64,000 nucleotides of DNA from assembly GCF_013487865.1 (NCBI RefSeq), contig NZ_CP047409.1, positions 1,736,001-1,800,000 on the forward strand, in the 5' to 3' direction. This document shows, in pieces, positions 4,189 to 29,900 of the stretch (the stretch's first letter is position 1; each line of letters begins with the position of its first letter). Source of the stretch: Lactobacillus johnsonii. Its GTDB lineage: Bacteria; Bacillota; Bacilli; Lactobacillales; Lactobacillaceae. The notes under the pieces were generated by a model. It searched no databases. It saw only the letters and a list, made by a program, of their open reading frames with translations, and had not been told where the DNA came from. Position numbers and translations under genes: made by a program.

Positions 4189-6873
4189 ATGGATAGTCAG
4201 AAACAACCTCCCGCGTATTCTCAAACAAAAGACGAGTTATTTTCAAATCTAGAAACAAGCTCAGCTGGTTTAAGCGAGCCAGAAGTTGACAGACGGTTAA
4301 AAAAATATGGGCATAATATTCTAAATGAAAAGCCTCCCAAGTCAATTTTAAACATGCTCAAAGAGCAAATCTTTGATCCAATGATTTTAATTTTATTAGG
4401 GGCAGCTACTTTTTCAGCCCTTTTAAATGAATGGGTAGAAGCTGGTGTAATTGTCTTCATTGTGATAATCAACTCTATTATTGGTATTATCCAAGAAAAG
4501 AAAGCCCAAGCTTCTCTTGCCGCTCTAAAAACAATGAGTGCTCCAACTGCAACAGTAATTAGAAATGGATCTGAAAAAATTGTTTCAGCTAGTGAATTAG
4601 TAGTCGGCGATCTAGTTATCTTAACCAACGGTGATATGGTGCCAGCGGATCTACGTTTAACTCAATCCAATAACTTGAAAATTGCTGAAGCTTCTTTAAC
4701 CGGAGAGTCAATTGCCAGTGAAAAGAATGCAGCTGCTGTTCTTTCTCCTGATTGTCCCTTAGGCGATAGAAAAAATATAGCCTACACTTCTTCAATTGTT
4801 ACTTATGGTCGAGGAAGTGGAATTGTAACTAAAACTGGGATGAATACAGAAATTGGTCAAATTGCTGGAATGCTAGAAGACGATGATACTAGTGATACTC
4901 CACTGAAGCGGAAACTTAACGCTGTGGGTAAAATTCTAACAATTATTGGTTTAATCATTTGTGTTTTAATTTTTGCCATCGGCGCTTTTTATGGACGTCC
5001 TCTTCTACCACAATTTTTAGTAGCAATTTCTTTAGCTATTTCAATTATTCCAGAAGGACTTCCAGCAACTGCAACCATCATTATGGCACTTGGAGTACAG
5101 CGAATGGCTAAGGAACATGCCTTAATCAAAAATCTACCAGCAGTTGAAACACTTGGAAACGCAACAGTTATTTGTTCTGACAAAACAGGAACTCTAACGT
5201 TAAACAAAATGACAGTAACTCATTTAGCTAACGGAGATGATTTCCTTAACAAAAAGATCTTAAAAGCTCAAAAAGCAGTAAAAAACAATAATGCTTATAA
5301 AGACTTAATGTATGCTGCTAGTCTTTGTAATGATGCTTCTCTTAGTCCTGCTAGTCCAGAAGAAATTATTGGTGACCCTACAGAAGGGGCCTTAATTCCA
5401 CTAGCACAAGATTTTGGATATTCCGTTTCTAGCTTAAGAAAAGAATATCCAAGACTTGGCGAATATCCTTTTGATTCAATTAGAAAACGTATGTCTACAA
5501 TTCATGAAATAAACAATGAATATGTTGCCTATACTAAAGGAGCACTGGACGAATTACTACCACTCTGTGACTACATTGCTACAAGCAATGGAATGCAAAA
5601 ATTAACTAAGACCGATAAAGAAAACATTTTAGCCTTATCACATAAGATGTCTGACCAAGCCTTGAGAGTTTTAGGTTTTGCCAGCCGAACCATTTTGAAT
5701 TTACCGCAAGAAAATGAAGATAGTGAACAACATTTAGTTTTCTTAGGAGCTGTTGGGATGATTGACCCAGCTAGAGATGAAGTTAAAGCATCAATCAAAA
5801 TGGCTCGCGAAGCAGGCATTAAAACTATTATGATTACTGGTGACCATAAAAATACTGCGGTTGCTATTGCTAAAAACTTAGGTATTTATGCTAATGGAAA
5901 TACTGTTATTTCTGGTACTGAACTAAACGAAATGACAGATAGTGAATTAGATCAAGCAGTTAAGTCAACCACAGTTTTTGCTCGTGTTTCACCTAATGAT
6001 AAGTTAAGAATTATTCAAAGCTTAAAGCGAAATGAAGAAGTAGTAGCTATGACCGGTGACGGAGTTAATGACTCACCCGCTTTAAAAGCAGCTGACATCG
6101 GAGTTGCTATGGGTGTTACTGGTACTGACGTCGCTAAAGATGTTTCAGACATGATTTTACTTAACGATAGTTTTACAACTATTACTGCCGCCATTAAAGA
6201 AGGACGAAAGGTTTACCGCAATATTCAGAAAGTAATTCAATTTTTACTAGTCGGTAATATTGCAGAAATTACTACTTTATTTATTGCTACCCTCTTTAAT
6301 TGGGACGCGCCACTACTTGCTGTTCATATTCTTTGGGTCAATTTAGCTACCGCCAGCTTACCTGCTCTAGCTTTAGGAGTAGACCCCGCAAGTAAAAATA
6401 TTATGAAGCATAAACCAGTGAAGACTGGAACCTTATTTGAAAGAGATCTAGTCTGGCGTGTTATCGGCCAAGGAATCTTTGTTGCCTTAATGACACTATT
6501 AGCTTACTGGATTGGAGACACTTTTGATAATCCGATTGCTGGTCAAACAATGGCCTTCTGTGTTCTAGCTTTATCTCAAATGCTCCGCGCATTTAATCAA
6601 CATTCTAATACTGATCCGATTTGGATTAGAGGAAACAAAATTAATATTTGGTTAATTGTATCCTTTATCGTTTCAGCAGTTTTAATGGGAGTTATTCTAT
6701 TTACTCCTAACTTACAATCTCTCTTTCATTTGACTAACTTGACATCAAGACAATGGCTAGTAGTCATCATTCTTTCTCTATTCTCAATCTTACAAGTTGA
6801 ATTAATGAAGCTAATCAAGCGATCTGTTAAAGCTCGTCAACAAAGCCGAGCATTAGAATCAGTCACAGATTAG
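4189..6873 (+). CDS. P-type cation-transporting ATPase (P2, Ca2+-ATPase-like)
   Basis: This 894-residue pump has the expected order of motifs: cation ATPase N-domain, TGES (171-174) in the actuator domain, PEGLP (288-292) in M4, phosphorylated Asp331 in DKTGTLT, a nucleotide domain, TGDGVND in the P-domain, and C-terminal helices. Length and motifs fit the P2A/PMCA-type calcium pumps. M5 keeps GNIAE, matching the Asn and Glu of SERCA. In M6, however, the usual NLxTDxLPA reads NLATASLPA: Ala722 replaces the Asp that helps bind Ca2+ in SERCA. Transported ion is therefore uncertain. The start codon sits within a weak hairpin (AAAGGA...TCCTTT). The gene is monocistronic. Confidence 0.8.
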
Positions 6874-6902
6874 CACATTATATTAATAGAACTTTAGCAA
6901 GT

Positions 6903-6918
6903 ATATTTTTAGACTTAA
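6903..6918 (+). repeat. 16-bp direct repeat, copy downstream of the P-type ATPase gene
   Basis: Identical to 4043-4058 (ATATTTTTAGACTTAA). The rest of the 6874-7035 gap shows no gene. Confidence 0.5.
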
Positions 6919-7035
6919 TAGCAAAGACCTTGTACAATAAAAATATAAGTTTAACACTTACATAAGCATAAAGGCATAATTAACTTTATGCTTTCTACTT
7001 TTCTGTAATCAAATAGCTAACACATTTTAAATATA

Positions 7036-7080
7036 AAAACAGCCAAATTACTCTATCTTGAGTAGTTTGGCTATTTTTAT
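7036..7080 (-). terminator. Terminator of the RpiR-family regulator gene
   Basis: AGCCAAATTACTC and GAGTAGTTTGGCT (7041-7072) form a 13-bp stem with one G-T pair, flanked by A and T runs on both sides. It serves the minus-strand regulator gene and could also act for plus-strand transcripts. Confidence 0.8.
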
Positions 7081-7102
7081 TGTCAGAATTTAACTTTTTA
7101 TG

Positions 7103-7921
7103 CTAAATAGATTTTTTCATAACTGCTGCAAGTGCCTGCTCCTTAATTTTATCTACATCAACTTTATTAAGCTTTTCATATTCTCGCGCTAAAACATCGC
7201 ATAAATATAATTGTGATACCTGACCAGCTACGGTACCAATATTCATAAATTCACTAACGGACGTCTGCAAGCTTACATCCCCTAATTGAGCAATCGGTGA
7301 CGTAAGATCGTTAGTAATAGCAATAATTTTAGCGCCGTATTCTTTAGCAACTTTGAGTGAATCATAAGTGTCTTTAGTATGACCAGAAAGTGATAAGCCA
7401 ACTACTAGGTCATCTTTACTTAATAAGGTCGCAACTTGAACTTGAATATGCGGATCAGACTCCGCATTGGCAATCAAACCAATTCTAAGCCAGGTTCTTT
7501 CATAGTCTCTAGCTGATTCGCTTGAGTGACCCAAACCAAAAATATGGATTCGGCGTGCTTTAGCTAATAAACTAACTGCTTGTTTTAAAACAGCAGGATT
7601 AATCAATTCTTCTGTTTTTTCAATTGAAGAAATTAAAACTTTACTACTTAACTCTGAAGATGTTTGAGCTTCCTCATGACTTTTTGAGGTAGTCATCATT
7701 GAATCTTGTGCTAAAGCTATTTTTAGATCCGAGAAACCTGAATAGCCTAATTTTTTACAAAGTCTAACAATTGTGGCATCTCCAGTATTAGTTGCAGTCC
7801 CTAGCGACTTAATCGTGTCATAAATCACATGTTCAGTATGACTCGCAATATAGTTAGCCAATTTATTTTCTGACTTAGTTAGCTTGTCTTTATTTTGATT
7901 GTATCGCTGTATAAATTCCAT
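7103..7921 (-). CDS. RpiR/MurR-family transcriptional regulator (HTH_6 plus SIS domain)
   Basis: The 272-residue protein has an N-terminal RpiR helix-turn-helix domain (about 1-77; NTGDATIVRLCKKLGYSGF is the recognition region) and a C-terminal SIS sugar-phosphate binding fold (about 105-245; RIHIFGLGHSSESARD and VGLSLSGHTKDT are the binding loops). Regulators of this family sense phosphosugars. It is divergent from nanE and the PTS gene, so it probably controls them, with ManNAc-6-P or GlcNAc-6-P as the likely effector by analogy with NanR of Gram-positive bacteria. The effector and the sign of control are inference. Confidence 0.85.
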   Translation of the reverse strand: MEFIQRYNQNKDKLTKSENKLANYIASHTEHVIYDTIKSLGTATNTGDATIVRLCKKLGYSGFSDLKIALAQDSMMTTSKSHEEAQTSSELSSKVLISSIEKTEELINPAVLKQAVSLLAKARRIHIFGLGHSSESARDYERTWLRIGLIANAESDPHIQVQVATLLSKDDLVVGLSLSGHTKDTYDSLKVAKEYGAKIIAITNDLTSPIAQLGDVSLQTSVSEFMNIGTVAGQVSQLYLCDVLAREYEKLNKVDVDKIKEQALAAVMKKSI

Positions 7922-7949
7922 TGTCTCACATCCTGATTATAACTATATC

Positions 7950-8049
7950 ATGCTTTTATAAGAAAACGCTTGCATAAAAATAAAATTCATTATATTATTT
8001 CTTCGGGAGGAAAACTCCAAAATAATATTTATTTGGAGTATATTTACAA
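7950..8049 (+). promoter_or_regulatory. nanE-PTS control region: cre-like site and palindrome over the ribosome site
   Basis: AGAAAACGCTTGCA near 7960 matches the CcpA cre consensus at all but two positions. ACTCCAAA (8014-8021) and TTTGGAGT (8032-8039) form an 8-bp inverted repeat, the right arm of which contains the nanE ribosome site. A second GGAG at 8006-8009 can pair with CTCC at 8015-8018 in an alternative hairpin. The palindrome could be the regulator operator or an RNA element. Both readings are inference. Confidence 0.45.
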
Positions 8050-8742
8050 ATGAATAAAGAAGAATTTATTAACAAAATCCATGGTGGCTTAATTATTTCA
8101 TGTCAAGCTTTGCCAGGCGAACCATTGTATACAGAAGAAGGCGGAATTATGCCCCTAATGGCTAAAGCGGCCCAAGAAGCAGGCGCAACAGGCTTAAGAG
8201 CAAATTCCGTTAGAGATATTAAACAAATTAAAAAAATCGTTGATCTTCCAATGATTGGAATTATCAAACGGGACTATCCACCAGAAAAGCCCTATATTAC
8301 TCCAACTATGAAAGAAGTAGATGAATTAGTTGAAACTGGCGTAGAAGTAATTGCAATTGATGCAACTTTGCGTCCAAGACATGATGGTAAGACAGTAAAT
8401 GAATTCATTAAAGAAATAAAAACTAAGTATCCAAATCAACTTTTAATGGCTGACACTTCAAATTTTGAGGAAGCAAAAAATGCTTATGAGGCAGGCGTTG
8501 ATTTTGTTGGTACTACGCTTTCTGGCTACACTGAAGAAAGTCCTAAAACTGATCACCCAAACTTTGATTTAATTAAAGCTCTAGTTGATGCAGGTCTTCC
8601 AGTAATTGCTGAAGGGAAAATCCATACTCCAGAACAATTAAAGCAAGTTATTGACATCAACCCAGCAGGAATTGTAGTCGGAGGAGCAATCACTCGCCCA
8701 TTACAAATTGCTAAAACTTTTACTTCAGTTTTTGAAAATTAA
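8050..8742 (+). CDS. nanE: N-acetylmannosamine-6-phosphate 2-epimerase
   Basis: NanE interconverts ManNAc-6-P and GlcNAc-6-P in the cytoplasm, feeding sialic acid or ManNAc carbon into amino-sugar catabolism. The 230-residue protein is a complete TIM-barrel member of the family; typical segments include [16 protein letters not shown] at the N-terminus, [25 protein letters not shown] with the family's catalytic-loop residues, and [13 protein letters not shown] near the phosphate site. It is the first gene of an operon, 27 bp ahead of a PTS EIICBA gene, which suggests that the phosphorylated substrate comes from PTS import. No nagA, nagB, nanA or nanK is in this window. Confidence 0.92.
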
Positions 8743-8769
8743 CCGAGCGTAACGAAACGAGGCGTAATC

Positions 8770-10836
8770 ATGTCTAAGAAATTTTCTCATATTGGCCAAG
8801 CCTTCTCACAACTGGGGCAAGCCTTTATGCTTCCAATAGCCATTTTACCGGTAGCCGGCCTTCTCCTAGGGCTAGGCGGAGCCTTAACCAATAAAGCTGC
8901 TGTCACCTCTTATCCTTGGCTTAATCAAGAATGGCTTCAAACAATTCTAAAGATAATGAATTTTGCAGGAAGTGCTGTTTTTAATAACTTAGCTCTTATT
9001 TTCTCAATTGGTTTAGCAGTTGGCTTAGCAAAAGGGGATAAAGGAACAGCTGGCTTAGCAGGTGGCGTTGCCTATCTAGTATATACAGCCACAATCTCAG
9101 GACTACTCCAACTATTTTCACCTAAAAACACTATTGATACAGGAGTATTAGGTGCAATTGTGATTGGCTCAGTTGTTGCCTACCTACATAATCATTATCG
9201 CAAGGTAGAATTACCACAATTCTTAGGCTTTTTTGGTGGTTCAAGATTTATTCCTATTATTTCATCTTTAGCTGCGATTGTTATTGGTGCTATCTTCTTC
9301 ATTATTTGGCCACCAATTCAAAGCGGTTTAACTAGTGCAGGTTATGCAATAGCTAAAATGGGAAGTTTGGGAAGTTTTCTATATGGCTTCTTGCTTCGCT
9401 TAACTGGAGCAGTTGGTCTACATCACACAATTTATCCAATGTTTTGGTACACAGCCCTAGGTGGAACTGCAGATGTAGCTGGTAAAACTGTTGTTGGTGC
9501 TCAAAATATTTTCTTTGCTCAATTAGCTGATCCTAATCACCATGGTTTGTTTACTTACGGTACTAGATTTTTTGCTGGTCGTTTTGCAACTATGATGTTT
9601 GGTCTTCCAGGGGCCGCTTTAGCAATGTACCTTTGCTTACCTAAGAGAAACCGGAAGACTAACGGTGGTCTATATCTTTCAGGTGGTTTAACCTCATTTT
9701 TAACTGGTATTACTGAACCAATTGAATATACTTTCTTATTCGTAGCACCTTGGTTATATGTTATCCATGCTTTTCTCGATGGATGTTCATTTTATGTTGC
9801 TGATATCATGAATATTAGAATCGGAAATTCATTCTCTGGTGGTTTAATTGACTATCTTCTCTTTGGTGTCTTACAAGGAAAAGATAAAACTAATTGGCCG
9901 AATGTCTTAATTATGGGAGTTATCTGGTTCTTCCTTTACTTCTTTATTTTTACTTTTTGTATTAAAAAATTCCATGTTGGTATTCCAGGAATGGTTGTAG
10001 AAGAAAATCAAGATGCTGAAAAAATTATGTCAGACAGCCCCAAGACTGATGACAAACTATACAACGAATCTTGTGAGATTATCACTGCTCTTGGCGGTTT
10101 AGAAAATATTGAAACTGTCTCAGCTTGTGCAACCAGATTGAGAGTTTCTTTAAAGGATAATAGTTTAGTTAATGATGACGTATTTAAAATGTTGGGCGCT
10201 CCTGGAGTATTAAAAGTTGCCGGTGGTGTTCAAGCTATTTTTGGTGGAAAAGCCGATCTATATAGTCAAGAAATTAATGACATTCTCGCCCATACAGATA
10301 TGCAGCCCGTAAATAATCCACAAGTGGATAAAGTTTCTAATCCTCAATCAAATTCTGTGCATAAGTCAGAAGAGATTATTTTCAAGGCACCTGTCAAGGG
10401 AACTTTTGAAGATATATCTCAAGTTAATGACGAAGTATTTTCACAAAAGATGATGGGTGAAGGATTTGCAATTAAACCGGAAAATGGAAAAATTTATAGT
10501 CCGGTTAACGCTACAGTCGTATCCATTTTTAAAACAAAACATGCTGTAGGTCTTAAAACCGACTCTGGTTTAGAAGTTATGCTTCATCTTGGAATAGACA
10601 CTGTTGAACTAGAAGGTAAGCCATTTACCTTAAAGGTAAACGAAGACGATCAAGTAACTCCAGAGACACAGTTAATTGAAATGGATCTAAAACAAATTGA
10701 AACTGCTAAAAAAGATCCAACAGTTATGACTCTTATTACTAATAGTAGTGAAAGAGTTGAACAAGTCGAAGATATCGTTACAAGTGGACAATTAGTTGAG
10801 GCACATAATGAAGTCTACTCCGTAACTACTAAATAA
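8770..10836 (+). CDS. PTS EIICBA permease, glucose/N-acetylglucosamine family
   Basis: This single-chain transporter imports and phosphorylates a sugar. The order is EIIC (about 1-410, multi-helix membrane domain with GITEPIEYTFLF), EIIB (about 425-500, phosphocysteine Cys453 in ACATRLR) and EIIA (about 535-680, phosphohistidine His606 in MLHLGID). The architecture is that of the glucose superfamily. Its place behind nanE and opposite an RpiR regulator points to an amino sugar such as ManNAc or GlcNAc rather than glucose, but the sequence alone does not settle this. It ends in a strong terminator, so nanE and this gene form a two-gene operon. Confidence 0.85.
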   Translation: MSKKFSHIGQAFSQLGQAFMLPIAILPVAGLLLGLGGALTNKAAVTSYPWLNQEWLQTILKIMNFAGSAVFNNLALIFSIGLAVGLAKGDKGTAGLAGGVAYLVYTATISGLLQLFSPKNTIDTGVLGAIVIGSVVAYLHNHYRKVELPQFLGFFGGSRFIPIISSLAAIVIGAIFFIIWPPIQSGLTSAGYAIAKMGSLGSFLYGFLLRLTGAVGLHHTIYPMFWYTALGGTADVAGKTVVGAQNIFFAQLADPNHHGLFTYGTRFFAGRFATMMFGLPGAALAMYLCLPKRNRKTNGGLYLSGGLTSFLTGITEPIEYTFLFVAPWLYVIHAFLDGCSFYVADIMNIRIGNSFSGGLIDYLLFGVLQGKDKTNWPNVLIMGVIWFFLYFFIFTFCIKKFHVGIPGMVVEENQDAEKIMSDSPKTDDKLYNESCEIITALGGLENIETVSACATRLRVSLKDNSLVNDDVFKMLGAPGVLKVAGGVQAIFGGKADLYSQEINDILAHTDMQPVNNPQVDKVSNPQSNSVHKSEEIIFKAPVKGTFEDISQVNDEVFSQKMMGEGFAIKPENGKIYSPVNATVVSIFKTKHAVGLKTDSGLEVMLHLGIDTVELEGKPFTLKVNEDDQVTPETQLIEMDLKQIETAKKDPTVMTLITNSSERVEQVEDIVTSGQLVEAHNEVYSVTTK

Positions 10837-27188: not shown

Positions 27189-27329
27189 AGGGAACCTCCA
27201 TTTTCTTTAAGTTAAGTATACGGTACTTAGTGGCGTTTTTAAAACTTTTTTTGATTTGACTTTAACTTTAAAAATCGCGACAATTGAATATGTAGAAGGT
27301 AGTTTTAGTATATAACGATAGGCAAAACT

Positions 27330-27791
27330 ATGGTAAAAATAGCTTTTTATACAATTACAGGACAAACGCAACGGTTCATAGATAAAACAGGGCTTGATGC
27401 ACATCGGATTGAGGATGCCCATCCTCAATATCAAATGAATGATAAATATATTTTGATTTTACCTTCATATCAAGACTTTATGATGGATTCTGTTGTTGAT
27501 TTTTTAACATATAAAGATAATAAAAAAAATCTTTTAGGATTAATTGGATGTGGTAATCGTAACTTTAACGATCTTTTTGCTCAAACGGCCAAAAAAATCT
27601 CCGTTACATTGCATGTTCCTATTCTTTACTTATTAGAACTTAGTGGCAATTCGACCGATGTCAAAAATGTACGTCAAATTGTTATGGAAGCTCGAAAAAA
27701 AGAAAAAGGTACACAGAAAGATTTACCAATTCAAAATCCATCTCTTATCAATATTAGTTTCTTAAGTGACTTCAGGCAGAAAAATGAATAA
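27330..27791 (+). CDS. nrdI: NrdI-like flavodoxin
   Basis: NrdI is an FMN protein that supplies oxidant to activate class Ib ribonucleotide reductase R2. The 153-residue protein shows FYTITGQTQRF (the FMN phosphate loop region), YILILPSY and GLIGCGNRNFNDLF, which correspond to the SSTSENTHRF, LILPTY and GSGNTNFG segments of classical NrdI. Residues differ at several places, so it is a divergent member. It overlaps the start of the R2-like gene by 8 bp, implying translational coupling. No nrdE or nrdH is in the window, which is unusual for this gene. Confidence 0.78.
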   Translation: MVKIAFYTITGQTQRFIDKTGLDAHRIEDAHPQYQMNDKYILILPSYQDFMMDSVVDFLTYKDNKKNLLGLIGCGNRNFNDLFAQTAKKISVTLHVPILYLLELSGNSTDVKNVRQIVMEARKKEKGTQKDLPIQNPSLINISFLSDFRQKNE

Positions 27792-28725
27792 AAAACCTTA
27801 TTATAAAGCAAACAACTGGAACACTGTAGAAGAGCAAGTAGATCGTTCTGCTTGGGCGAGATTAAATGATATTGTTTACGAACCTCGTCGTGTTTCAATT
27901 GACAAAGACAAAAATGAATTTTTACAGCTTCCTAAAGAGGAACAAACTATGCTTTTACATAGTTTTGGAGCTTTAACTCTTTCCTCTACTCTTCAAATGA
28001 ACGTAGCTCTATCTGAAATTAAACAGGATGCTGAGAATTCTGAGGAAAGTGCTGTATACAACGGTCTACAATACTTAGAATCAATTAACAATAAGGCTTA
28101 CAGTTATGTATTAGCTGAACTTTCCGATTCTGAAAAGCAGGAAGAAGCATATGAATGGGCAAATCAAAATCCCTACTTACAAAAAAAGATGAAACTTTTA
28201 AATACAGTTTATCAATCAGGAACTGCTATTCAGAAAAAAGCTGCTCATGTTTTTCTATCAACTGGGCTTTATCATTCTTCATTTTTCGGTCCCTTATATT
28301 TATTTGGACAACATAAGTTACCAAGAACAGCGGAATTAATTAAGTATGCTCTTAGAATCACAACTTTAAATGGTATTTATACAGGTATTAAGTTTCGGCG
28401 AGATTTTTTCAAACTTTCTAAGAAAGAGCAGAAAAAAGTTCATGATTGGGTATATTACTTATGTGATAAATTATATGACAATGAGCTTAGCCATATTAAA
28501 TTATTGTATAATCATACTGATCTAGAAAATAAGGTTGAGCATTATATTCATTACACCTTAAATAAAGCTCTTATGAATTTAGGTCAAGAGCCAAAATATC
28601 CGGAAAATGTCGAAACTTTAGATCCAATTTTGACAACTGGTTTGATGGAAAGTGCAATGATTGAAGATTTCTTCTTTTACACTAATGCCCATCCGATCTT
28701 GAAAATGCGTGAAATAATAAAATAA
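27784..28725 (+). CDS. NrdF-like protein with a disabled metal site
   Basis: The 313-residue protein aligns end to end with class Ib R2 (NrdF), with near-constant offset of one from E. coli numbering and shared blocks such as LYDNELSHI and NKALMNLGQEP. The six metal ligands of NrdF (D67, E98, H101, E158, E192, H195) correspond here to Ser68, Glu99, Asn102, Ser159, Thr193 and Asn196, so five are lost. The radical Tyr position is kept (Tyr106). The C-terminal acidic tail that docks on NrdE is absent; the protein ends at LKMREIIK. The start ATG 27784 lies inside nrdI; a GTG at 27766 is less likely. It cannot be a normal R2; function unknown. Confidence 0.8.
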   Translation: MNKKPYYKANNWNTVEEQVDRSAWARLNDIVYEPRRVSIDKDKNEFLQLPKEEQTMLLHSFGALTLSSTLQMNVALSEIKQDAENSEESAVYNGLQYLESINNKAYSYVLAELSDSEKQEEAYEWANQNPYLQKKMKLLNTVYQSGTAIQKKAAHVFLSTGLYHSSFFGPLYLFGQHKLPRTAELIKYALRITTLNGIYTGIKFRRDFFKLSKKEQKKVHDWVYYLCDKLYDNELSHIKLLYNHTDLENKVEHYIHYTLNKALMNLGQEPKYPENVETLDPILTTGLMESAMIEDFFFYTNAHPILKMREIIK

Positions 28726-28756
28726 GGAGTTAGCCTTTATGCTAACTCCTTATTTT
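28719..28756. terminator. Terminator shared by the nrdI/NrdF-like pair and the facing gene
   Basis: AATAAGGAGTTAGC (28721-28734) pairs perfectly with GCTAACTCCTTATT (28741-28754), loop CTTTAT. It overlaps the end of both convergent genes. Confidence 0.9.
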
Positions 28757-29235
28757 GTCTTCTTAGTTTTTTCTTCTGGCTTTTGATAATTACGAATTAC
28801 TTCAATCTTTTCTTCAATTGCTTTAACTAATAATGCACTATATTTTTCTGGATCAGCTACGATCTCATTACTTGAACCCAAGATATCAATTCGGAAGTGA
28901 GAAACATTTACATATTCTGAAATAGTTTCAAAATAAATATTTACTTCATATTCATCCTCATTGTTACAAAAGTTGCTAATTTTTTTATAGTTAGCAAATG
29001 GAAGATTAATGATATTACTTTCAAGGGCAAAAGTCATTGGTCTTCTTCCACTAATGGCCAACTGCGTTTGAATGAGAGAATCATGTTTAAAAGCTTGCAC
29101 AGTTTCACTAATCATTTTAGTTGCAATATTTTTTAATTTTGTCTTGGTTATTTCGCTATATTTAATTGTCTCAAGATCTTGAAGATAATCTTGTTCTTCA
29201 ATTTTTTTAGTTATTTCTTCTTGTTTAATTTTCAC
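28750..29235 (-). CDS. Hypothetical cytoplasmic protein, 161 residues
   Basis: The protein has a charged helical N-terminus (about 1-60, repeated Lys/Glu with coiled-coil tendency), a mixed central part with aromatic beta-type segments (DEYEVNIYFETISEYVNVSHF) and a Lys-rich end. There is no signal peptide or membrane helix. I do not recognise a family. It lies between the R2-like gene and mazEF but on the strand of mazEF, and is separated from mazF by about 85 bp, so a shared transcript with mazEF is possible. Function unknown. Confidence 0.6.
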   Translation of the reverse strand: MKIKQEEITKKIEEQDYLQDLETIKYSEITKTKLKNIATKMISETVQAFKHDSLIQTQLAISGRRPMTFALESNIINLPFANYKKISNFCNNEDEYEVNIYFETISEYVNVSHFRIDILGSSNEIVADPEKYSALLVKAIEEKIEVIRNYQKPEEKTKKTK

Positions 29236-29320: not shown

Positions 29321-29662
29321 TTAATCAAGTTGCAAAGCAAAACTAAGTAATTCCATTACTTTAAGCATATCTTCTGGTCTAAGATGATCTGCTGGTTTTT
29401 CATCTAGCAATCTCATTCTAGAAAAAGTTTGAATTTGAGCTGCATTTACACGACCATGAATATGATATCCGAACAAGTCTAAGTAGGTAGGGAAATGATT
29501 ACCGTGGGATGTAATTGGACAAACCATTAGATAATTAGTCTTTTCATTATATGAATTAGACGACACTACTACAGCAGGATGTTTTCCCTTCATTTCTTGT
29601 CCAACTGACGGTGAAAAATCCGCCCACACAATATCTCCCTGTTTAAATTTATTCTTCGGCAT
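29321..29662 (-). CDS. mazF: MazF-family endoribonuclease toxin
   Basis: The 113-residue toxin begins MPKNKFKQGDIVWADFSPSV, followed by GQEMKGKHPAVVVSSNSYN, which is the MazF/PemK beta-barrel core with the conserved Arg/Lys region and Ser; ICPITS-like VCPITSHGN follows. MazF cuts mRNA at short sequences. The frame is open further upstream to 29734, but ATG 29662 has GGAGG ten bases ahead and a family-like start. It overlaps mazE by 14 bp, giving translational coupling as usual for toxin-antitoxin pairs. Confidence 0.88.
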   Translation of the reverse strand: MPKNKFKQGDIVWADFSPSVGQEMKGKHPAVVVSSNSYNEKTNYLMVCPITSHGNHFPTYLDLFGYHIHGRVNAAQIQTFSRMRLLDEKPADHLRPEDMLKVMELLSFALQLD

Positions 29663-29900
29663 GACGTAATTCCTCCATAGCCATATTTTCCCAAGCTTCC
29701 CTTTCTGGTCCTGGTACATCTTCAAATTTAGCATCGGAGGTATAAGGATTAGAAATTTTCGGTATTAAGATCAAACTTCCATCAGACTTCTGATGAATTG
29801 CATACTCAGTTCCTACCTCTACTTTAAAAGAAGCAGGTAGTGAAAAGCCAACTGAATTACCGACCTTTTGAGTTACAATATGATGAATAGATATTTTCAT
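29649..29900 (-). CDS. mazE: MazE-family antitoxin
   Basis: The 83-residue protein has an N-terminal AbrB/SpoVT swapped-hairpin DNA-binding domain (about 1-48; QKVGNSVGFSLPASF is the typical core, and SDGSLILIPK closes it) and an acidic C-terminal tail (about 50-83; DAKFEDVPGPEREAWENM) that in the family wraps around the toxin. It binds its own promoter and neutralises MazF. It sits directly upstream of mazF, as expected. Confidence 0.88.
   Translation of the reverse strand: MKISIHHIVTQKVGNSVGFSLPASFKVEVGTEYAIHQKSDGSLILIPKISNPYTSDAKFEDVPGPEREAWENMAMEELRHAEE

Follow-up and report, generated by a model that had tools for sequence, protein, structure and literature searches.

A metal-site-deficient R2-like protein and its NrdI partner in Lactobacillus: a candidate flavin/oxygen module outside ribonucleotide reduction

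The window analyzed here is the whole stretch of 64,000 nucleotides from Lactobacillus johnsonii that corresponds to C1:1736001-1800000 of genome G000 (1,995,616 bases, one contig); the neighboring sequences place this genome near L. johnsonii and L. gasseri. Within it, two overlapping genes encode an NrdI-like flavodoxin and a protein with the R2/NrdF fold (Table 1). A preliminary description of this DNA, made from its letters, had proposed the same two reading frames, and both assignments are borne out by the profiles PF07972 and PF00268. The NrdI-like protein also passes the curated NrdI model TIGR00333, for which the cut-off is 74.65 bits. The R2-like protein matches the R2 superfamily profile over residues 10-275 and passes the NCBIfam model NF007183 (PRK09614.1-2; cut-off of 320 bits), and does not pass the class Ib NrdF model TIGR04171 (246.6 bits versus a cut-off of 355). 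Its length of 313 residues is counted from the ATG; the mechanical list of open reading frames begins the frame at a GTG at position 27766. The 8-base overlap makes translational coupling of the two genes probable.

Signals flanking the pair were also examined. The promoter-like site ahead of nrdI is considered weak because the scan gave 12 such sites compared to 8.6 (sd 3.4) in shuffled sequences. In the acidophilus-clade loci, a stretch of about 30 bases, GTACATTAGATTTATTAGGGA, is found ahead of the nrdI start codon and is near-identical in seven loci. When the conserved upstream stretches were viewed by eye, this one included, no known regulator box was recognized. Two small overlapping genes lie at window positions 29321-29900 on the minus strand, by eye similar to a MazF/PemK-type toxin and an AbrB-type antitoxin; these occur only in close relatives of the window (families 15 and 16, eight genomes).

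Table 1. Positions in the window of the NrdI/R2-like gene pair, its neighboring signals, and selected residues. Residues belong to the R2-like protein except where NrdI is named; conservation is given for full-length members of the family.
Feature	Position	Strand	Basis or conservation
Promoter-like site TTGACT-17-GACAAT	27256..27284	+	9/12 matches; inside stretch conserved in nine gasseri-clade loci
nrdI-like gene, 153 aa, FMN flavodoxin	27330..27791	+	PF07972 113.4 bits; TIGR00333 92.6 bits; PDB NrdI matches
NrdI residues 46-53 SYQDFMMD, FMN-side loop	27465..27488	+	alignment with described NrdIs
NrdI residues 142-147 ISFLSD, in C-terminal extension	27753..27770	+	alignment
Overlap of nrdI-like and R2-like genes, 8 bases	27784..27791	+	ORF coordinates
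R2/NrdF-like gene, 313 aa, dimetal site absent	27784..28725	+	PF00268 169.5 bits; NF007183 382.4 bits
Ser68, D67 ligand position	27985..27987	+	87/87
Glu99 (E98), sole ligand retained in the window's protein	28078..28080	+	87/87
Asn102, H101 ligand position	28087..28089	+	N/A/T across family
Tyr106, NrdF radical tyrosine (Tyr105)	28099..28101	+	87/87; deleted in 15 shorter proteins
Ser159, E158 ligand (channel gate) position	28258..28260	+	S/E/N across family
Tyr163-His164, where E. coli NrdF has Phe162 (pocket) and Tyr163 (channel)	28270..28275	+	Y163 87/87, H164 86/87
Thr193, E192 ligand position	28360..28362	+	86/87
Asn196, H195 ligand position	28369..28371	+	N/S/G/C across family
YTNAH, residues 299-303, conserved new C-terminus replacing NrdE-docking tail	28678..28692	+	alignment
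Terminator-like inverted repeat after pair	28717..28758	.	reads on both strands

Residues 5-299 of the R2-like protein can be aligned with solved NrdF structures, in agreement with the full-length relationship to class Ib R2 that had been proposed. Alignment with E. coli NrdF returned the same reading of the ligand positions as before (S/E/N/S/T/N, with Tyr106 kept at the radical position), such that one of the six class Ib ligands D, E, H, E, E, H is retained in the window's protein. We examined these positions in 87 full-length members of the family, consisting of 28 copies from genomes together with 59 protein clusters from P0001-P0083 that are 295 residues long or longer; the remaining 24 clusters were dropped as too short (including 13 of 281 residues). 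The 87 members are not independent because genome copies and protein clusters overlap. Asn103 and Ala189 are present in all 87, in addition to the conserved residues of Table 1. Among the 28 genome copies, all intact, Ser68 and Glu99 are invariant and Thr193 is found in 27, with Ser in the remaining one. The other three ligand positions vary, position 102 being Asn or Ala (14 copies each), position 159 Ser, Glu, or Asn (12, 14, and 2 copies), and position 196 Asn, Ser, or Gly (19, 8, and 1 copies). The original statement that five of six ligands are lost therefore holds for the clade of the window, but not for the 14 of 28 copies that keep Glu159, in which four are lost.

The canonical NrdFs of other Lactobacillaceae genera differ from the family at most of these positions, all 20 of those aligned having D/E/H/Y/E/E/H at the ligand and radical sites (D68, E99, H102, Y106, E159, E193, and H196), together with A103, F163, Y164, and I189. 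We take position 189 to be the equivalent of Ile234 of E. coli NrdB. Tyr163 presumably sits where a Phe-to-Tyr change (F208Y) in E. coli R2 (NrdB) yields DOPA. Overall, 64 of the 313 positions are invariant (at least 27 of 28 genome copies); these include 8 of 14 cavity and channel positions (hypergeometric p 0.002) and 4 of the 7 positions formed by the six ligands and the tyrosine (p 0.03), p values that serve as a guide only because the positions, although derived from the literature, were chosen after the alignment had been viewed. The pocket is not wholly fixed, because position 159 (S159/E159/N159) and other pocket positions vary.

In class Ib R2 proteins, a channel leads from the FMN of NrdI to the metal site, and in B. 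cereus R2b it is lined by Ser162, Tyr166, Lys263, and Asn267 (excerpt of PMC9462851). Tyr166 closes the channel, and the radical tyrosine sits in a pocket sealed by Phe165 and Phe169 (excerpt of PMC6754363); Gln70 of E. coli NrdF likewise lines the channel (excerpt of PMC7615503). Residue numbers for the channel and pocket follow the published papers, and docking, channel, and pocket were read off the alignment. Gln71 of the R2-like family is invariant in the alignments made, and the genome copies retain Lys261 (27/28), Asn265 (26/28), and Phe167 (25/28). The channel tyrosine is replaced by His164, the pocket phenylalanine by Tyr163, and the channel serine position (160) is variable. The radical-transfer aspartate (position 192) is absent from all 87 members, the position reading I, G, V, S, or T, and the radical-transfer tryptophan (position 32) is either kept or exchanged for Tyr. 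As had been noticed from the window, there is no NrdE-docking tail; the alignment ends in a new short C-terminus, in which Tyr299 and Asn301 are found in 87/87 full-length members and His303 in 79/87, the other 8 having Asn. These alignments suggest that the family has largely kept the oxidant route and has lost the metals and the exit to R1.

We also compared the NrdI partner with its canonical counterparts. The FMN-side loop SYQDFMMD was considered as a radically new element and then dropped, the canonical Lactobacillaceae NrdIs being SYDDDMMD-like. Judged from the alignment, the new part of the orphan NrdI is its C-terminal extension, which occurs in the orphan NrdIs but in neither the 9 canonical Lactobacillaceae NrdIs nor the class Ie NrdI of the alignment.

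PF00268 matched 31 places in 75 Lactobacillus genomes, two of which are class Ie. The R2-like gene is found in 29 of these genomes, and the other 46 have no R2 match. An nrdI gene, intact or broken, adjoins it in 29/29 cases, and so the ligand pattern (S/E/x/x/T/x for the family) does always travel with nrdI. There is one chromosomal site, with the same flanking genes around the pair in 30 loci (the 29 and a remnant in G058); in G054 one side is a contig edge. Syntenic regions were fetched for 38 of the 46 genomes without R2, and both flanks were in reach in 34. The flanks of these 34 regions are separated by 44-216 bases in 28, by 526-554 bases in 4, and by 2.1-4.0 kb in 2 (homologous ends). 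An HMM search (E 0.01) detected no remnants of either gene in the 38 pair-negative regions. The flanking genes were not taken as partners because they are adjacent to each other also in genomes that lack the pair. When the pair is mapped on a 64-row tree of three flanking proteins, its distribution requires at least 5 changes; the pair may be old with losses, or may have moved among lineages at the same site.

A family profile run over 397 Lactobacillaceae genomes found members in Lactobacillus. Among the matches listed, those from outside Lactobacillus scored at most 331.7 bits and ended before the new C-terminus, and the 20 that were checked are canonical. In an R2 tree built by a quick method, with long branches flagged, the 18 orphans included form one group (SH-aLRT 100) that is positioned beside the canonical Lactobacillaceae NrdF (96) on a stem of 1.82, apart from class Ie. 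With respect to a phage origin, a scan of viral contigs gave 190 pattern matches, of which 0 were confirmed as a relative.

We examined which ribonucleotide reductases (RNRs) accompany the pair. G000 has no match to PF02867 (the NrdE/NrdJ barrel family), lacks class II, and contains one class III NrdD; the sole R2 found is the R2-like protein without a metal site. The best NrdH profile match in this genome is 26.1 bits, below the curated cut-off of 85.75, consistent with the lack of nrdE and nrdH noted near the pair. Of the 75 genomes, 73 (all but G120 and G121) were searched with PF02867, and NrdE proved absent from 26 of the 28 R2-like-bearing genomes tested. Strong NrdE matches were found only in G020 and G042, where they belong to nrdFIE operons with a class Ie VPK R2. 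The question raised at the outset, whether a normal nrdHIEF set is found in the same genomes, thus has a negative answer in most cases. These class Ie operons (L071 in G042, 6492-10084; L072 in G020, 6982-10571; both minus strand) lie apart from the metal-free orphan pair of the same genome. No match for NrdE, NrdJ, or NrdD was found in 17 of 73 Lactobacillus genomes, some of them incomplete, and several Lactobacillus species therefore probably live without ribonucleotide reduction. The R2-like-bearing genomes without a matched RNR are G005 (one contig, 99% complete), G009 (99%), and G034 (71%). With NrdE lacking in G000 and no RNR class matched in the near-complete G005 and G009, the pair does not serve as class I R2 in these genomes.

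These data bear on the possibility that the pair regulates or inhibits another RNR, such as class III, or acts as an oxygen guard for it. NrdD is found in 25 of 29 genomes with the R2-like gene as compared to 15 of 46 without (Fisher p 5e-6). However, the association was lost on the tree and was rejected: across 5 independent pairs, 2.0 changed in the same way, 0.3 in the opposite way, and 2.7 showed no difference. Class II was not associated with the R2-like gene (13/29 versus 18/46, p 0.64), and G005 and G009 keep the pair without any RNR match, with a dN/dS for NrdI of 0.12 between them. We consider a role in regulating another RNR unlikely. Regulation of the real R2, one of the roles raised in the preliminary description, finds no support as a general function, given that genomes lacking NrdE hold no other R2.

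A second alternative is that a different metal site, for example a mononuclear one, has been rebuilt by Glu99 and His164, joined by Glu159 in half of the family. The near-invariance of Glu99 and His164 (Table 1) and the presence of Glu159 in 56 of 87 full-length members (14 genome copies and 42 proteins) would be compatible with such a site. Against it, position 159 is Ser or Asn in the other 31 members, and, close to the old site, the orphan-specific residues listed include no other newly acquired and invariant His, Asp, Glu, or Cys, making a rebuilt site quite unlikely as judged from these residues.

The selection acting on the pair was estimated from dN/dS. Median values are 0.073 for the R2-like gene (15 pairs, dS<1.2) and 0.061 for nrdI (36 pairs), the pairs not being independent. 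Within the gasseri clade the values are 0.067 for the R2-like gene (30 pairs) and 0.053 for nrdI, and those of three flanking genes are 0.064, 0.040, and 0.046. The pair is under ordinary purifying selection in most lineages, with a few lineages decaying. The R2-like gene is an intact single frame in 28 of 29 genomes, the exception being a frameshift in G030. Of the 29 nrdI genes, 26 are intact; the three broken ones, in G012, G031, and G053, accompany an intact R2-like gene. G058 contains remnants of both genes and no PF00268 match. The R2-like frames without an intact nrdI could represent recent breakage or an NrdI-independent role. In addition, the 13 clusters of 281 residues (P0008-P0020) carry an in-frame deletion of 32 residues that removes the Tyr106 helix with Glu99 and Tyr106, and the same gap is found in two still shorter proteins. 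Near L. johnsonii the pair seems to fail by different routes, by deletion of the Tyr106 helix (P0018, named L. johnsonii) versus a broken nrdI (G012). In G061 (probably L. taiwanensis), NrdI and the R2-like protein are found in one 474-residue frame, either a real fusion or an assembly error; the single frame arises because an A-run is one base shorter than in the near-twin G006, and this shortened run may be an assembly error.

The broken, frameshifted, deleted, and remnant copies, along with the absence of NrdE from most genomes and of R2 from 46 of 75, are points in favor of a decaying relic, left by a class Ib operon from which nrdE disappeared. This interpretation is weakened by the selection data: both genes are intact at 25 of 29 loci, their dN/dS of 0.05-0.08 is like that of the neighboring genes, Ser68, Asn103, Tyr163, His164, Ala189, and Thr193 are fixed over deep divergence, and both partners have new conserved C-termini. 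We therefore regard a relic as very unlikely. Random substitution and decay, named at the outset as an outcome that would count against a new function, apply in part: three of the six ligand positions vary and a few lineages are decaying, whereas the changes at the other three are constant or almost constant and most lineages show purifying selection.

Class Ie R2 proteins (VPK and QSK variants) share with the orphan family an incomplete dimetal site, an NrdI partner, and a retained radical tyrosine; they replace E98/E158/E192 by V/Q, P/S, and K, keep D67 and both histidines, and serve NrdE (excerpt of PMC11846895). Our class Ie controls read D/Q/H/Y/S/K/H (P0104) and D/V/H/Y/P/K/H (the L. kefiranofaciens R2). 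In contrast, E98 is retained in the orphan family, and the substitutions fall on D67, both histidines, and E192 (to Thr), in support of the distinction drawn earlier; the two are on separate branches. That the orphan is a class Ie-like metal-free radical R2 serving a distant R1 is most improbable. In its favor, Tyr106 is retained along with an NrdI partner, DOPA is formed by class Ie R2 with NrdI, and nrdIF pairs dependent on a distant nrdE are reported (excerpt of PMC11846895); against it, 26 of 28 tested genomes lack NrdE, the D191 equivalent and the docking tail are lost, and the ligand pattern is complementary to that of class Ie.

The closest known system is the class Ib NrdF of other Lactobacillaceae, which is nearest in the tree and shares with the orphan its fold, length, adjacent NrdI, Tyr106, Glu99, Q71, K261, and N265. 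The orphan R2-like protein differs by substitution of D67, both histidines, and E192, as well as of E158 in many copies, by the lack of the radical-transfer aspartate, the docking tail, and usually NrdE, and in that its NrdI is more conserved than the R2. For this last comparison, 20 canonical regions were fetched, NrdI was found in 11, and two doubtful ones were dropped. In the resulting 9 operons, the mean identity is 79% for NrdF and 54% for NrdI, with NrdI higher in 0/36 pairs (77%, 47%, and 0/55 if the two doubtful operons are included). In the orphan pairs (24 genomes, G061 left out), the mean identity is 53% for the R2-like protein and 75% for NrdI, with NrdI higher in 275/276; the order of the two proteins can be compared between the sets but the absolute identities cannot, because several genera are represented in the canonical set but a single genus in the orphan set. 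Constraint is thus inverted relative to class Ib, NrdI being the slower-evolving partner in the orphan pair. The greater constraint on NrdI leads us to propose that the activity under selection resides in the flavin protein, for which the R2-like protein has turned into a platform.

The R2-like protein thus lacks the six-ligand site, the radical-transfer aspartate, and the docking tail, and the pair is co-inherited at one locus and lost together. Ribonucleotide reduction is disfavored because the R1 route and NrdE are absent, and the evidence speaks against the production of deoxynucleotides by the orphan pair; its work is probably a different redox job outside RNR. A metal-free radical protein in the RNR sense, the first of the functions raised in the preliminary description, is unlikely because the radical-transfer aspartate and the tail are lost. 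The best candidate among the functions raised there is an unrelated use of the fold, combined with an NrdI-type flavin. Our preferred reading, to which we assign a probability of roughly 0.45, is that an NrdI-R2 module may have left ribonucleotide reduction and been repurposed in Lactobacillus as a metal-free flavin/oxygen module. Against this reading are the dispensability of the pair (46 of 75 genomes without R2), the broken nrdI genes (n=3), the frameshifted R2-like gene (n=1), and the deletions of the Tyr106 helix.

If the module has been repurposed in this way, NrdI would still dock on the R2-like dimer and place its FMN at the entrance of the former oxidant channel, where Q71, K261, and N265 are kept and the tyrosine is replaced by His164. 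The reduced flavin would be the working redox center, held and tuned by the R2-like protein. Reduced NrdI would meet O2 at the channel mouth on the dimer, and superoxide or peroxide would enter a metal-free pocket gated by His164. The redesigned pocket would offer an acid, Glu99, and two tyrosines, Tyr106 and Tyr163, along with S68, T193, and N103. It might consume reduced oxygen, or control its production or timed release. Alternatively, a pocket tyrosine might be oxidized to a lasting cofactor, as occurs in class Ie with its one tyrosine. The specific version of this second output, in which the oxidant made by NrdI passes His164 and oxidizes the Tyr106/Tyr163 pocket to give a tyrosine-derived redox cofactor for use outside RNR, is rather unlikely.

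R2lox retains an Mn/Fe site and forms a Tyr-Val cross-link with it, and we know of no NrdI partner for R2lox. It is an R2-fold protein employed outside ribonucleotide reduction (excerpt of PMC6399176), a use of the fold that the orphan R2-like protein would share. Our searches of the open-access literature gave no account of a metal-free orphan NrdI/R2-like family; lactobacilli appear in the RNR literature for other reasons, in the excerpts concerned for the plasmid NrdD of L. plantarum and the class II enzyme of L. leichmannii.

R2 is usually viewed as the radical donor of R1 and NrdI as the activase of R2, and genome annotation follows this view. NF007183 names its members ribonucleotide-diphosphate reductase subunit beta, a function with which the residues and the missing NrdE are at odds here. 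Genomes that lack NrdE, two of them near-complete and without any matched RNR, maintain a conserved NrdI-R2 pair. If the pair is redox-active, the NrdI-R2 channel would be in use outside DNA-precursor synthesis, and the pair would provide a test bed for how oxidant chemistry can arise that, like that of class Ie, needs no metal. An annotation of 'RNR subunit beta' in Lactobacillus need not mean aerobic ribonucleotide reduction, and this bears on the oxygen and nucleoside needs predicted for gut and vaginal lactobacilli.
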